NCBI RefSeq assembly: GCF_002197845.1
Contig: NZ_NIDE01000004.1
Coordinates: 620,001 to 684,000 of the forward strand
DNA from: Fimbriiglobus ruber
Lineage (GTDB): Bacteria; Planctomycetota; Planctomycetia; Gemmatales; Gemmataceae
Length of the DNA stretch: 64,000 nt
Direction of reading: 5' to 3'
A model generated the notes under the pieces. That model did not search any database, was not told where the DNA came from, and was given only the letters and a program-made list of their open reading frames with translations. This document shows positions 23,225 to 43,867 of the stretch, piece by piece (position 1 is the stretch's first letter; each line of letters begins with the position of its first letter). The translations under genes and the position numbers were made by a program.

Positions 23225-23312
23225 GCCCAGGGCTTACGACCTGGGCTATTCTCTGCCGCCCCTTTGGGGCTTAAAACCATCGCGGGCCTAGCCCAGGTCG
23301 TAAGCCCTGGGC
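23225..23312. repeat. Foldback palindrome with 24-bp arms
   Basis: Arms 23225-23248 and 23289-23312 are exact reverse complements (outermost GCCCAGGGCTTACGAC...). A small CCCCTTTGGGG palindrome sits in the loop. It lies between the kinase-FGE gene and the phosphoesterase gene. Confidence 0.9.
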
Positions 23313-35560: not shown

Positions 35561-35741
35561 GGCGCTCGGCGCGGGTCTCCGACCCCGCCGTTCGGCCCGA
35601 CCGCAGGTCTCCTGTCCCGATGCTCGCCGCACGCACCCGCGTGGGTCTCCTCCCGACGCTCACCACATTGGGCTTTCATCGTGGGGACGGGAGACCTGAG
35701 GTCGGGCCGAACGGCGGGGTCGGAGACCCGCGCCGAGCGCC
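35561..35741. repeat. Foldback element with 58-bp arms
   Basis: Arms 35561-35618 and 35684-35741 pair with two mismatches (outer GGCGCTCGGCGCGGGTCTCC). The loop is about 65 nt. It fills the gap between ggt and the receiver-like gene. Confidence 0.9.
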
Positions 35742-37343: not shown

Positions 37344-37430
37344 CCGATCTCTCCGGGTGTGTGGGCGGGGACGGGAGCATTGTACCGGCCCGCGGGCCGC
37401 CGGTCGTCGGGGGTCTTGGGATTCCAGGCG

Positions 37431-37734
37431 GGTGATGGTCTTGGGGCTCTGCCCCAAACCCCGCTGGAGGGCCGGGAGCCCTCCAGACCTCCCTACTTGC
37501 TCCCGATCCGTGGGGCGATCCCAAAGCGGATCGCCCCACGGATCGCTCGCAGGGGCCTGAGTTGATCGCGGCGGGAAGACAGCGACTTTTCGATGGGTTC
37601 CAGAAACGGCCTCGCGAGCGACCAGCGGAATGATCCGCTCTGGGATCAATTCCGCTGGTCGGGAGCAAGAGGGGAGGTCTGGAGGGCTCCCGGCCCTCCA
37701 GCGGGGTTTGGGGCAGAGCCCCAAGACCATCACC
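37431..37734. repeat. Large foldback element with 76-bp arms and two inner hairpins
   Basis: Arms 37431-37506 and 37659-37734 pair with two mismatches. Inside are a 17-bp stem (37505-37521 with 37528-37544) and an ~18-bp stem (37619 to about 37657). No gene is inside. It occupies most of the gap between the divergent S1C protease and FGGY kinase genes. Confidence 0.93.
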
Positions 37735-37831
37735 TCACAAAAAGCCGCCGGGTACGTACCCCCTTGCCGTTGCCGCCGTCCGCGGCGAAACTCACTCGAC
37801 ACCCGCTCTCACGCCCCCGGAGACTTCTCCC

Positions 37832-39493: not shown

Positions 39494-40750
39494 ATTTCAA
39501 TAGCCACTGTACGGCTAAGTACATCGACACCGTCGAACTTCACCGGCAATACCGCCGACTCAATGAAGTTTCAATGGCCACTGTACGGCCAACCACATCG
39601 GCGCCATGGCAACTGCTCCGCGTTGTAAGCCCGGTCGGGAATTGCACGTTTCAATGGCCACTGTACGGCCAACCACATCGGCGCCAAAAGTGAGTACGGG
39701 CCGATTCAGGTTGCCGTGGAGAGTTTCAATGGCCACTGTACGGCCAACCACATCGGCGCCTGTACTTGTTGGCGCAGGCGTCACATTCTTACTGAACCTC
39801 CGGTTTCAATGGCCACTGTACGGCCAACCACATCGGCGCCTCGTTGAGGTTCACGCAAATGGGTCGCAAGCTGGTCGTTTCAATGGCCACTGTACGGCCA
39901 ACCACATCGGCGCTGTGTGGTGTTCGTCATGGTCATCGTCTTCGGTGACGACATGTTTCAATGGCCACTGTACGGCCAACCACATCGGCGCCCTGATACT
40001 TCTTCCCGTTGTACTCGAACCCCTCAACATAGAAGTTTCAATGGCCACTGTACGGCAAACCACATCGGCGCCTGCCGATGACGGGATGGAAACGTTCGGG
40101 ATTGCCGGGTTTCAATGGCCACTGTACGGCCAACCACATCGGCGCCGAGTTTCAGGCGGGTGAAGTGCCGAACGACCTTTTGCTCGTTTCAATGGCCACT
40201 GTACGGCCAACCACATCGGCGCCGGCGCGTTTGACGACGACGGGCCGACGTACCACGCAACGTTTCAATGGCCACTGTACGGCCAACCACATCGGCGCAG
40301 ACCGCGTACGGGGACGCGCACGAGCCGCCGCGAAAGGTTTCAATGGCCACTGTACGGCCAACCACATCGGCGCCTCCTGCAATAGCGGGAGCGGTTGGAG
40401 CTGGATCATTGTTTCAATGGCCACTGTACGGCCAACCACATCGGCGCCCGTGTTCGACGTATTACCATTTCGCCAACAACTTTACGTTTCAATGGCCACT
40501 GTACGGCCAACCACATCGGCGCCGGGGCGATTCTCTGTGTCCAAAGGGAGCAGGGAGAGCAAGTTTCAATGGCCACTGTACGGCCAACCACATCGGCGCC
40601 GCGTGGGGAAACCACTGCATGTTTGGCAAAGAAATCACGTTTCAATGGCCACTGTACGGCCAACCACATCGGCGCCCGCAGTAGCCGGGGAACCACTCGT
40701 CTTGCGGCGTGTGTTTCAATGGCCACTGTACGGCCAACCACATCGGCGCC
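39494..40750 (-). CRISPR. CRISPR block 1 (leader-distal), 17 repeats
   Basis: Repeat starts: 39494 (degenerate), 39568, 39648, 39723, 39803, 39877, 39955, 40035, 40109, 40186, 40262, 40337, 40411, 40486, 40563, 40639, 40713. Variants: C-to-A inside 40035; the final base is T at 39914 and A at 40299 instead of C. Spacers are 36-42 nt. The spacer after 40713 is interrupted by the ISKra4-like element. Confidence 0.95.
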
Positions 40751-40788
40751 GCTGGAGGATGAAGGGCAAAACCTTTGGAGGAGCAAAG

Positions 40789-42507
40789 GGTGAAGTCTCT
40801 CTGATGCTGTGAAATGCCGGGGTTTTTGGCGTTCGGGCCGGGAAACACGCTGCGAGTCCCTTTTCGCCCTCCATGCCATTCGCCGTTTGTGCTTGAAAAA
40901 GTGCGGCGTTCCGACTCTCTTTGGGTTTACTACGACTCATCGAGCGAAGGAACGCCGCATGACCCTTTCTATCCCCCTGACCCTCGTCATGGCCACGTGT
41001 ACGGCCCCCTGCGAATCGGACACGCCCAGCCCTCGGGACCGCTCCCTCGACGATCTGTGTACCGCGTCCCGGGACCAACTCCAGGCGCTCGTCGACGCCT
41101 TCCGGTCGGAGCCCATCACCCCGGCACGGACCCAGCAATTCGAGCACGACGTTCAGAACGCTCTCCGCGGGCTCGGCCGGCACGTCGTCCAGTACACCTA
41201 CAACCACGTCGAACCGGCGGCCATCGCCGAGCAACCCCGGCACGCCCAGTTCGCGTGCGAGAGGTACACGCGGGTCGGCGCAAAGACCCCGCAGAACGTG
41301 TGGACGGTGTTCGGCCAACTGGTCGTCCGGCGGATCGGCTACCGGCCATCCCAGGCGGGCGAACCGATGCTCTTCCCGCTGGCCCACCGGCTGGGATTGA
41401 TCCACGGGGCGAGTCCGGCTCTGGCCGCCCGGGCGTGCCAGTTCCTGGCCGAGGCCGGATCCAACCAGCAGCGGGTTCTGGCCCGCCTGCGGACGGACCA
41501 CGGGGTCGGTTGGGGGGTCAAGAAGTTGCGCCAGGTGAGTCGGGCCGTGTCGGACGAGATGGCCGAATACCGGCACGACGCCCAGGTCGACCAACTCGTG
41601 GCCTGGCTGGTCGCGGCCGGGGCATCGACCGGCCGACACAAGCCGGTCGTGTGTGTCGGTCGGGACGGGATCACGCTCCGTCTGCGGATGACACGCGGGA
41701 GTCTGTACGAGGTGGCCAGCACGGGCACGGTCAGCGTGTACGACCGCCGGGGGACGCGGTTGGGGACCGTGTACCTGGCGTACGCGCCCGCATCCGGCCA
41801 GCCCGCGATGCGTGGGGCGTTGACGGCCATCATCCGCGACGTGTTGACCCGGTGGGAGGGTCCGTTACCCCGGTGGTGCTACGTGACGGACGCCGGGGAC
41901 AACGAGACCGGGTACTACGACGACGTGCTCAAGGGGATGACGCACCCGCGGACCCAGCAGGTCTTAGAGTGGGTCCGGGTGGTCGATTACTACCACGCGA
42001 GCGAGCGGGTGTGGACGTTGGCGAACGTGTTGTTCGGTGGCGACCGGGGGGCCGTGGGGTGGGCGAAGAAGATGCTGAAGTGGATGCTCCAACCGGGCGG
42101 GGTGAACCGGGTGCTGCACTCGGCCGCGGCGTTCCGGGTGGCCCGGACGCTGACCCGGACCCAGAAGAAGGAGTACGACCGGGCGTACGCGTACCTGCGA
42201 AACCGGATGGGTCACATGGACTACGCGAGATACCGACGGGTGGGTGTTCCGTTGGGCAGTGGAGTAACCGAGGCGGCGTGCAAGACGGTGTTCACTCAGC
42301 GGTTGAAGCTCAGCGGCATGCGGTGGACGAAAGAGGGGGCGCAAGTGATCTTGAACCTGCGGGTGATCCTCCTGAGCGGGGTCTGGGACGTCGTGTATGG
42401 GCGGGTCTTGGCCGCACGGCCGCAGCCCATCATGAGGGGTCACGTCGCTTCGGAGCCAAACGAGCTGGGAATCGCCGCATAATCAGCGAGTTAGAGAGAC
42501 TTCAACC
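40789..42507 (+). mobile_element. ISKra4-like insertion sequence, 1719 bp
   Basis: The left end starts GGTGAAGTCTCTCT and the right end is the near-exact inverse (GGTTGAAGTCTCTCT when reversed). It is flanked by 9-bp direct repeats GGAGCAAAG at 40780-40788 and 42508-42516, in line with the ISKra4 group. The right copy includes the first G of the next CRISPR repeat. Removing the element and one duplicate restores a 37-nt spacer (40751-40787). Confidence 0.93.
40959..42482 (+). CDS. Transposase, ISKra4 family
   Basis: The 507-residue product has the family's late signature PLGSGVTEAACKTVFTQRLK followed by LSGMRW, containing the catalytic Glu, and earlier acidic residues in VVCVGRDGITLR and WCYVTDAGDNETGYY. 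It catalyses DDE-type transposition of the 1719-bp element. ATG 40959 is preceded by AAGGA; the frame is open back to 40809 but without conservation. The gene looks complete, so the copy may be active. Near its start, 40989-41006 resembles the CRISPR repeat core (see findings). Confidence 0.9.
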   Translation: MTLSIPLTLVMATCTAPCESDTPSPRDRSLDDLCTASRDQLQALVDAFRSEPITPARTQQFEHDVQNALRGLGRHVVQYTYNHVEPAAIAEQPRHAQFACERYTRVGAKTPQNVWTVFGQLVVRRIGYRPSQAGEPMLFPLAHRLGLIHGASPALAARACQFLAEAGSNQQRVLARLRTDHGVGWGVKKLRQVSRAVSDEMAEYRHDAQVDQLVAWLVAAGASTGRHKPVVCVGRDGITLRLRMTRGSLYEVASTGTVSVYDRRGTRLGTVYLAYAPASGQPAMRGALTAIIRDVLTRWEGPLPRWCYVTDAGDNETGYYDDVLKGMTHPRTQQVLEWVRVVDYYHASERVWTLANVLFGGDRGAVGWAKKMLKWMLQPGGVNRVLHSAAAFRVARTLTRTQKKEYDRAYAYLRNRMGHMDYARYRRVGVPLGSGVTEAACKTVFTQRLKLSGMRWTKEGAQVILNLRVILLSGVWDVVYGRVLAARPQPIMRGHVASEPNELGIAA

Positions 42508-42515
42508 GGAGCAAA

Positions 42516-43867
42516 GTTTCAATGGCCACTGTACGGCCAACCACATCGGCGCCATGGCCCGGCGCAACACGGCGCGACCGGGCCTTGTGAGTTTCAATGG
42601 CCACTGTACGGCCAACCACATCGGCGCGCTCGGTTTCCGGATGGTTCTCAAGGGTTGAAGCCCCAGTTTCAATGGCCACTGTACGGCCAACCACATCGGC
42701 GCCTCGGTGCTTCGATGGCACCACTGCCTTCGTGATTCCGTTTCAATGGCCACTGTACGGCCAACCACATCGGCGCCCTTCGTCCCGGTCAGGAGCACCA
42801 ACTCCTGGAATGCAAGTTTCAATGGCCACTGTACGGCCAACCACATCGGCGCCCTCCCGGACACTTCTGCTGGCAACTACCGGAAGACATTCGTTTCAAT
42901 GGCCACTGTACGGCCAACCACATCGGCGCCACGATGCCTTCGATGACGAACAACTTGCTCTCATTCGTTTCAATGGCCACTGTACGGCCAACCACATCGG
43001 CGCCGATATCTTCAGTGCGCGTGAAGCGGCAGCAACAGCATGGTTTCAATGGCCACTGTACGGCCAACCACATCGGCGCCCCGCGCCGGAAATGGCGCCA
43101 ATGCTCCTACAAGGCCCGCCTGCGGGCCTAAGTTTCAATGGCCACTGTACGGCCAACCACATCGGCGCCCGAGGCTTGGGCCCGCGCCCAAGCGCTTAAC
43201 AGCAAGGTCGCAACCGACCGGTCGAGTTTCAATGGCCACTGTACGGCCAACCACATCGGCGCCGTTCGGCCCGGTAGGCAGTCTAAATCTGTGGCTCCCC
43301 GTTTCAATGGCCACTGTACGGCCAACCACATCGGCGCCGCGTGACCTTAACGCGACTGGGAAGTGACGAACCCAGTTGGTTTCAATGGCCACTGTACGGC
43401 CAACCACATCGGCGCCCTTAAAGCCATGTGGTCTGTGCAACAGGTGCTGTTGGTTTCAATGGCCACTGTACGGCCAACCACATCGGCGCCCCGCCCCGCT
43501 TAAATGTGGGGGAAAGGAGGAGAAACCGTTTCAATGGCCACTGTACGGCCAACCACATCGGCGCCTTTTTCACGTCGGCCTAAACGGGGAGGGGCTCTTT
43601 TTGTTTCAATGGCCACTGTACGGCCAACCACATCGGCGCCCTTACGCGTTGCGGTCACCGACGTGAAGGTCTCCGAGTTTCAATGGCCACTGTACGGCCA
43701 ATCACATCGGCGCCGTCGTCGTTATTCTCCGGGTCTTTGACATGTTTTTTTGCGTTTCAATGGCCACTGTACGGCCAACCACATCGGCGCCTCGGGGTAT
43801 AAGCTATGGGGAAAGCGGAACATGGTTTTCGTTTCAATGGCCAATGTACGGCAACCACATCGGCGCC
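42516..43867 (-). CRISPR. CRISPR block 2, 18 repeats
   Basis: Repeat starts: 42516, 42591, 42666, 42740, 42816, 42893, 42967, 43043, 43132, 43226, 43301, 43379, 43453, 43528, 43603, 43677, 43754, 43831. Variants: G as last base at 42628; C-to-T in 43677; 43831 is 37 nt with one C lost and a C-to-A. Two adjacent spacers are over-long: 51 nt (43081-43131) and 56 nt (43170-43225). Confidence 0.95.

Follow-up and report, generated by a model that had tools for sequence, protein, structure and literature searches.

The stretch of the Fimbriiglobus ruber genome analysed here, 64,000 nucleotides of contig NZ_NIDE01000004.1 (positions 620,001 to 684,000; hereafter the window), carries at positions 37431-37734 a large foldback sequence, which we read as a copy of a mobile element, some 400 bp long, non-autonomous and specific to its lineage, that inserts in a fixed orientation close to promoters and whose fold is self-maintained. 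We would put the probability of this reading as a whole at roughly two in three. That the element is lineage-specific, non-autonomous and mobile is well supported, mobility following from target duplications together with an element-free locus in relatives. That it inserts in one orientation and at a nearly constant distance from predicted promoters is supported, in part by patterns recognised post hoc, and by analogy with known promoter-directed elements a promoter-targeting transposase of the Mutator-like type is its probable carrier. A function for the host is not needed for this explanation.

The window copy consists of a long inverted repeat that encloses two smaller hairpins and an asymmetric core, and is bordered by remnants of two flanks:

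37396-37403, + strand: candidate target duplication, upstream copy GCCGCCGG; weak alone, with a 1-base overlap with the flank
37403-37439, no strand assigned: T flank (the conserved flank on the upstream side), a shortened remnant on the protease side, placed by its likeness by eye to the T flanks of other copies
37431-37506, + strand: left arm of the long inverted repeat, 74/76 positions paired
37504-37545, + strand: inner hairpin A, with an 18-bp stem without mismatch; among copies the loop is conserved and the stem sequence variable
37546-37618, no strand assigned: asymmetric core with edges GCTCGC/GCGAGC
37619-37661, - strand: inner hairpin B, with a 1-nt bulge in the window copy
37659-37734, - strand: right arm of the long inverted repeat, pairing with the left arm
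37735-37752, no strand assigned: G flank (the conserved flank on the downstream side), degenerate and facing the FGGY kinase; outer limit approximate
37744-37751, + strand: candidate target duplication, promoter-side copy GCCGCCGG, overlapping the approximate G flank
37764-37792, + strand: possible kinase promoter, TTGCCG (37764-37769), 17 bp and GAAACT (37787-37792), found by eye and a weak match to the consensus
37832: kinase start codon GTG

The initial annotation, made from the sequence alone, had described 76-bp arms matching at 74 positions, and exactly this number pairs (inverted-repeat score of 70 over 76 nt; a looser extension reaches 83 nt at 94%), while one Markov-2 simulated window of the same composition contained no inverted repeat above the same threshold. 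It had further described two perfect stems within the loop; the left one is indeed perfect over its 18 bp, but the right one is perfect for 13 bp only and then carries a 1-nt bulge. The very stable RNA fold that it had anticipated was recovered as well, with -283.8 kcal/mol for the element against a shuffle mean of -143.3 (z -25). The interval of 304 bases is, nevertheless, part of a larger unit, as degenerate flank remnants extend beyond it on both sides.

Copies of the element are dispersed across its own genome (12.36 Mb searched, in 20 contigs), where at least 97 local matches on both strands were obtained among the best 40 of 63 candidates. The genome-wide search with the arm sequence that had been proposed as a check likewise gave a multi-copy result: the arm-tip pattern with at most three mismatches occurs as 34 forward and 34 reverse arms, and the reversed control pattern does not occur in this genome. 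The 37 regions fetched for closer analysis (identified by L numbers) comprise 34 paired copies, four regions with solo arms and one partial copy next to a full one; the copies L036 and L054 are near duplicates. The arm tips are 281-348 bp apart in 28 of the 34 copies, and most copies lack a long open reading frame (ORF). Two long copies of about 920 bp (L049:2513-3437 and L053:2695-3616) each enclose an ORF of about 150 amino acids, for which no Pfam match was found. The interior of L049 has a GC content of 46% versus 69% in its surroundings.

Matches were few in the other genomes and collections searched. A comparison with 58 genomes of relatives, considering the best 12 candidates each, left 57 without a match and one (G003) with a single 33-bp match; the exact loop motif occurs in 0 of 94 other genomes of the family, a blastn search with the element against plasmids and phages gave no match, and the exact arm pattern was not found in viral contigs. 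In a genome collection the exact arm pattern picked out single arms in a Desulfovibrio and a Ruminococcus metagenome-assembled genome, which lack the paired fold and were rejected as copies. The Ruminococcus sequence (L066:4610-4680) is a double hairpin resembling a lone arm and sharing the GGGGCTCTGCCCCAAACCCCGCTGGAGG core, indicating that the arm motif recurs outside the lineage. A literature search covering titles and abstract openings returned no description of the foldback element.

As the initial annotation had stated, the window copy sits between divergently transcribed genes, one for an HtrA-like serine protease and one for an FGGY-type kinase, both NCBIfam matches being below the curated cut-offs. 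The gap between the two genes measures 488 bp in the window versus 116 and 120 bp in two genomes of the same genus, and the same gene pair stands back to back in two other genera with gaps of 115 and 108 bp (start codons were placed by eye where the alignment fell short of them). In the same-genus genomes, the best inverted repeats within 450 bp upstream of the kinase score 11 and 10, versus 70 for the element, and none is comparable to it. Both of these genomes carry TTGCCG-17-CAAAAC in the same gap, which by eye resembles the TTGCCG-17-GAAACT of the window closely enough to suggest a single shared promoter. The match in G003 (L064:1503-1532) is a GGGGCGATCCC hairpin located immediately downstream of the gene orthologous to the window's FGGY kinase, and is perhaps a terminator.

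Alignment of the copies places the arms inside the unit rather than at its ends, the long inverted repeat lying 48-78 bp inside the duplications. Intact copies have a conserved T flank of 63-78 bp with the outer end GAGGGGCTTGCCCTC, some 35 bp beyond the end of the window copy's remnant, and a G flank that is similar among copies for about 45 bp and divergent beyond. The outer ends do not evidently repeat one another, so that the unit lacks terminal inverted repeats of the kind found in miniature inverted-repeat transposable elements (MITEs). In the 12 copies with an intact T flank, the sequence adjoining the T end on its outside was compared with that near the G end for direct repeats, which gave a mean score of 8.0 versus 4.4 for mismatched pairs (p=5e-5, 20,000 permutations). 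As a near duplicate of L054, L036 was dropped from this test as well as from the hairpin, variable-pair and palindrome-growth counts below, and was kept in those of arm identity and gene orientation (31/34). Candidate target duplications of 8-12 bp were called in 10 of the 12 copies, L050 and L054 having none; three of the ten (L029, L046 and L062) are mismatched repeats with low scores, that of L029 near background. In a cargo-bearing sub-family (L041, L048, L049 and L053) neither the repeat scan nor inspection by eye found an abutting duplication, one flank of L053 being masked. The suggestion of a MITE-like element in the initial annotation therefore holds with regard to the dispersed short copies, the duplications, the element-free locus and the general lack of a long ORF, but not with regard to the inverted repeat, which is not at the ends of the unit. 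At L031:2560-2700, adjoining a full copy, arm tips are arrayed head to tail every 45 bp (2560, 2605, 2650, 2695) with G-flank sequence between them.

The copies are oriented with respect to neighbouring genes. A rough gene caller based on codons predicts a gene with its 5' end toward the G side in 31 of the 34 copies, and among the 24 copies with a clear G flank the G side faces a gene start in 23; the gene called at L054, one of the 24, is short and doubtful and overlaps the element. The exception, L058, also faces a gene start, the gene in question being interrupted by what we read as a transposase gene, which the caller picked instead. Orientation was best-guessed in ten copies (L028, L034, L036, L037, L041, L044, L048, L049, L052 and L053), of which L028 and L041 lack a canonical flank; all ten were excluded from the 24, including L048, although it meets the same G-flank score and faces a gene start. 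The downstream genes are diverse, with few homologous pairs (L038/L042, for example), and include what we take from their sequences to be ribosomal L21, UMP kinase and ThiS.

Counted from the downstream end of the duplication, the best predicted sigma-70 promoter has its -35 box at +8 to +10 and its -10 box at +30 to +33 in 8 of 10 copies; L061 and L062 differ. A shuffle test of this distance gave p=0.001, its resolution limit. Random points before genes, taken in 175 upstream regions of the fetched DNA that include those of genes beside element copies, fall within +30 to +33 in 131 of 1750 cases (7.5%; binomial 4e-8), the interval having been chosen post hoc on a pattern first noticed by eye and scored later, which counts against this part of the reading. 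Such a placement might alternatively reflect survival after random insertion rather than targeting, the retained copies being those that are tolerated or even useful, for instance as insulators. Insertions into genes are harmful, and long GC-rich hairpins could stop read-through. However, tolerance would allow insertion at any greater distance, yet the positions of 8 of 10 copies agree within 4 bp; only 1 of 34 copies lies between convergent genes, versus 5 of 21 sampled sites for a second foldback family of this genome; and the window copy contains no terminator-like site. We regard placement by survival as unlikely.

The inner stems bear on how the fold is kept. Arm identity is 95.9% within a copy versus 90.1% between copies, and the inner hairpins pair internally rather than with one another, each following a sequence of its own. 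The 63 inner hairpins that were scored, of which 53 are distinct, contain 1128 pairs, and 1115 of these are Watson-Crick, a count that omits 3 of 66 hairpins for length, the right one of the window among them, and uses hairpin lengths chosen for maximal pairing. Read from arm to centre, the exceptions are 0 G-T, 7 A-C and 6 other. A transcript would hold 5 or 2 G-U pairs depending on its direction, with 2 or 5 A-C, where the hairpins are read on opposite strands and the orientation of four of the six copies involved is guessed. Variable pairs (57 of 64 hairpins, with at least 13/18 paired) are Watson-Crick in 97.6% and 98.8% of cases, versus 78% and 68% when the 3' halves are shuffled, a procedure that ignores relatedness; in 590 variable cells, again from arm to centre, G-T is found 0 times versus about 28 after shuffling. 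Mismatches in the arms number 27 on one strand and 21 on the other and thus show no wobble bias. Palindromes have also grown outward, by 52 bp in L044 (51/52 paired), 22/22 in L034, 12 in L053 and 9/9 in the window copy. In 4 of 66 hairpins the stem has spread over adjacent sequence. The loop is inverted in L036/L054, and of 24 copies, 7 have an interior reversed with respect to the flanks and 17 a forward one.

Selection on RNA pairing should leave wobble pairs, while copying of DNA strands within a hairpin would not. Given stems that are Watson-Crick paired without clear tolerance of G-U, the pattern suggests DNA template switching rather than RNA selection, of which the grown palindromes and stems and the inverted loop and interiors would be additional footprints, and the fold appears to be maintained at the DNA level. 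Mutations of the template-switch kind in hairpins, loop inversion included, have been described (PMC8794818). The hairpins discussed there share with ours the restoration of Watson-Crick stems, multi-base compensatory changes and loop inversion, but belong to RNA genes with a G-U signal, whereas here they form a dispersed non-coding repeat without a clear one. The initial annotation had envisaged a regulatory RNA hub, and a structured RNA acting upstream of genes as leader, attenuator or small RNA, its stems under selection for pairing, would agree with the very stable fold, with the compensatory changes and with the location of nearly all copies upstream of a gene. Against this stand the rarity of wobble in the stems, which lack the covariation through G-U intermediates expected of a regulatory RNA, the evenness of arm mismatches between strands, the inverted interiors, the diversity of the neighbours and an Rfam scan of the window that returned no family matching at the element. 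Moreover, in the copies that could be measured the predicted -35 box comes after the element, which is hence outside the transcript of that promoter. We consider a regulatory RNA most improbable. The 63 hairpins represent a natural experiment on whether compensatory changes in stems need RNA selection, and near-perfect stem covariation without a clear wobble signal advises caution against inferring a functional RNA from covariation alone.

Insertion at a set distance from promoters has a precedent. Mutator-like transposases are described whose insertions lie 15-17 bp upstream of a -35 box, have one orientation and carry repeats of 8-9 bp, and the groups targeting sigma-A promoters include TnGBS/ISLre2 (p-MULT 3) and the ISKra4 group (p-MULT 4) (Guerillot et al., 2014; PMC3942029). 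The foldback element resembles these in its short direct repeats, its oriented placement and its distance, which is 17-21 bp by the called duplication lengths and about 17 bp if the duplication is 8 bp. It differs from the p-MULT elements as described there in being a foldback without a transposase or terminal inverted repeats of 18-39 bp, in its variable promoter-side end and in the dominance of an internal foldback. Terminal repeats of the p-MULT type ending in C were not found in the element; a final C can be read in five G ends, which however represent three different sequences. As the missing terminal repeats are unexplained, we propose that the element works like p-MULT elements without filing it among them. 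If this reading is true, promoter-targeted insertion, known from p-MULT insertion sequences and integrative and conjugative elements, would extend to a foldback without recognisable transposon ends, and polymerase-guided integration could be studied on a 400-bp substrate.

A possible source of transposase is present in the genome, which holds 89 matches, fragments included, to the ISKra4-type transposase encoded in the window. In two other ISKra4-type groups (L125, L126, L128, L129 and sister loci) a predicted -10 box lies 49-51 bp from one end only, in 6/10 and 6/8 copies, an observation made post hoc and including some low promoter scores; random points lie at this distance in about 4% of cases (71/1750). 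The ends of the foldback element were not matched in 46 ISKra4-type loci. Between its arm tips GGGTGACGTC/GGGTGGAGTC and the ISKra4 terminal repeat GGGTGAAGTC there is a similarity that we did not use, since the duplications of canonical copies are outside the arm tips. The ISKra4-type insertion sequence of the window itself (ORF 40809-42482; NF033572, 157 bits, curated cut-off 205) has ten more matches in the genome at 100% protein identity. It interrupts a CRISPR-like repeat array (39606-43200; recognised from translations and flanks, without a CRISPR tool) with an 8-bp duplication GGAGCAAA.

A number of observations weigh against promoter-targeted insertion by such a transposase or against the self-maintained fold. 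The two ISKra4-type groups sit about 8-10 bp further from the promoter than the foldback, for which junction and -10 box are 40-44 bp apart, and among the 11 copies of the window's own ISKra4 group none has a -10 box at 49-51 bp. Duplications of p-MULT elements are 8-9 bp long, whereas those called here vary more widely (8-12 bp), and a length of 8 bp fits only if the extra matches are due to chance or microhomology. A DDE transposase should need both a constant G end and a terminal inverted repeat, but the G end is not constant in sequence and no such repeat was seen. No larger element with the same ends was found in the genome by T- and G-end searches (best 40 of 44 and 26 of 26 candidates), which outside the copies returned one isolated 18-bp match to the T end (E=0.08). 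The 11 further copies without duplications support the promoter distance only weakly (7/11, null mean 2.8, maximum 8). At the window copy both duplication and promoter are weak: the score of the duplication is equalled or beaten in 338 of 1122 mismatched pairs and is not significant alone, one promoter scan gave no prediction at the kinase while another chose a site different from TTGCCG-17-GAAACT, and the alignment puts the promoter-like sequences of the window and of the same-genus genomes in different columns. Lastly, the lean of 7 A-C versus 0 G-T in the stems (two-sided sign test 0.016, calculated by hand) is unexplained by template switching, though the numbers are small.

Other routes of spread were weighed against the same features. 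Like REPIN/BIME and other bacterial palindromic repeats, the element is a dispersed intergenic palindrome, but its unit is much larger and it has duplications, two variable inner hairpins and oriented promoter placement (PMC3733652, PMC6006769). Repetitive extragenic palindromic (REP) sequences and REPINs are defined by palindromes of 20-40 bp, no target duplication and a Y1 partner, from which the element departs in unit size and duplications. The element might have been moved as single-stranded hairpin DNA by a HUH (Y1) transposase of the IS200/IS605 or REP type, the route taken by REPINs, which would suit its dispersal and its wealth of hairpins as well as the three Y1 transposases of the genome. 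Moreover, atypical secondary structures, sometimes present in high copy number, border the Y1 genes of class 3, which occur mainly in Planctomycetes, Acidobacteria and Proteobacteria (PMC6006769). Neither the element ends nor two whole copies, however, matched anything around the three Y1 genes (about 1.5 kb on each side), and the target duplications speak against this route, which we hold to be very improbable. Y1 transposition leaves no target duplication.

A retro-type insertion by target-primed reverse transcription, in which the fixed T end would be the 3' end of an RNA and the variable G end its truncated 5' end, would account for a T end that is constant and a G end that varies in length and sequence. 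It would also agree with duplications called at 8-12 bp and with the 16 reverse-transcriptase matches in the genome. But no reverse transcriptase is linked to the element, the ends and the two whole copies gave no match at the 12 reverse-transcriptase loci compared, out of the 16 matches, and the promoter geometry has a precedent in DDE Mutator-like elements (PMC3942029). Furthermore, the length of the G end varies by only about 25 bp. We judge a retro-type origin quite improbable. The same variable end might also be the trace of a new bacterial mode of transposition, in which a foldback recognised by its structure, with one fixed end and no terminal repeats, would dock on promoter-bound RNA polymerase and its promoter-side end would grow by about 7-8 bp of donor flank per move, kept as coupling sequence from a circular intermediate. 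The G-end lengths past a shared landmark are 4, 4, 11, 18, 18, 19, 24, 25, 27 and 33, measured by hand with an ambiguity of a few bases in nine duplication-bearing copies and L050, L060 being omitted for want of the landmark; a search for parent-child matches at the G end, as such accretion of donor flank would leave, found none, and we hold this idea to be doubtful. In eukaryotes, the Tm1 Mutator/Foldback elements of root-knot nematodes combine foldback inverted repeats with 9-bp duplications, membership in the Mutator superfamily and MITE-like forms (PMC3169594); the present element shares the foldback inverted repeats, but those of Tm1 are terminal, and the abstract does not mention promoter placement.

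For the mobile element inserted in a fixed orientation at promoters, the following course of events may be envisaged. A p-MULT/ISKra4-type transposase supplied in trans would insert the element with its G end toward the gene and its T end upstream, leaving about 9 bp between the duplicated target and the -35 box. The inserted palindromic DNA would then fold on itself during replication, and template switching, to which the substitution pattern points, would copy one side of a stem onto the other. As an outcome, stems would drift in sequence and yet stay Watson-Crick paired almost throughout, loops or the interior would at times invert, and palindromes would at times extend into the flanks.

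Two further structured features were noted in the window. The second foldback family is represented at 35561-35741 by a copy with 58-bp arms and a 65-bp loop; it has dozens of dispersed copies, in which the arms are seemingly near-constant and the loop is variable. A match to the Acido-Lenti-1 RNA (RF01687) above the gathering score lies at 23226-23271.
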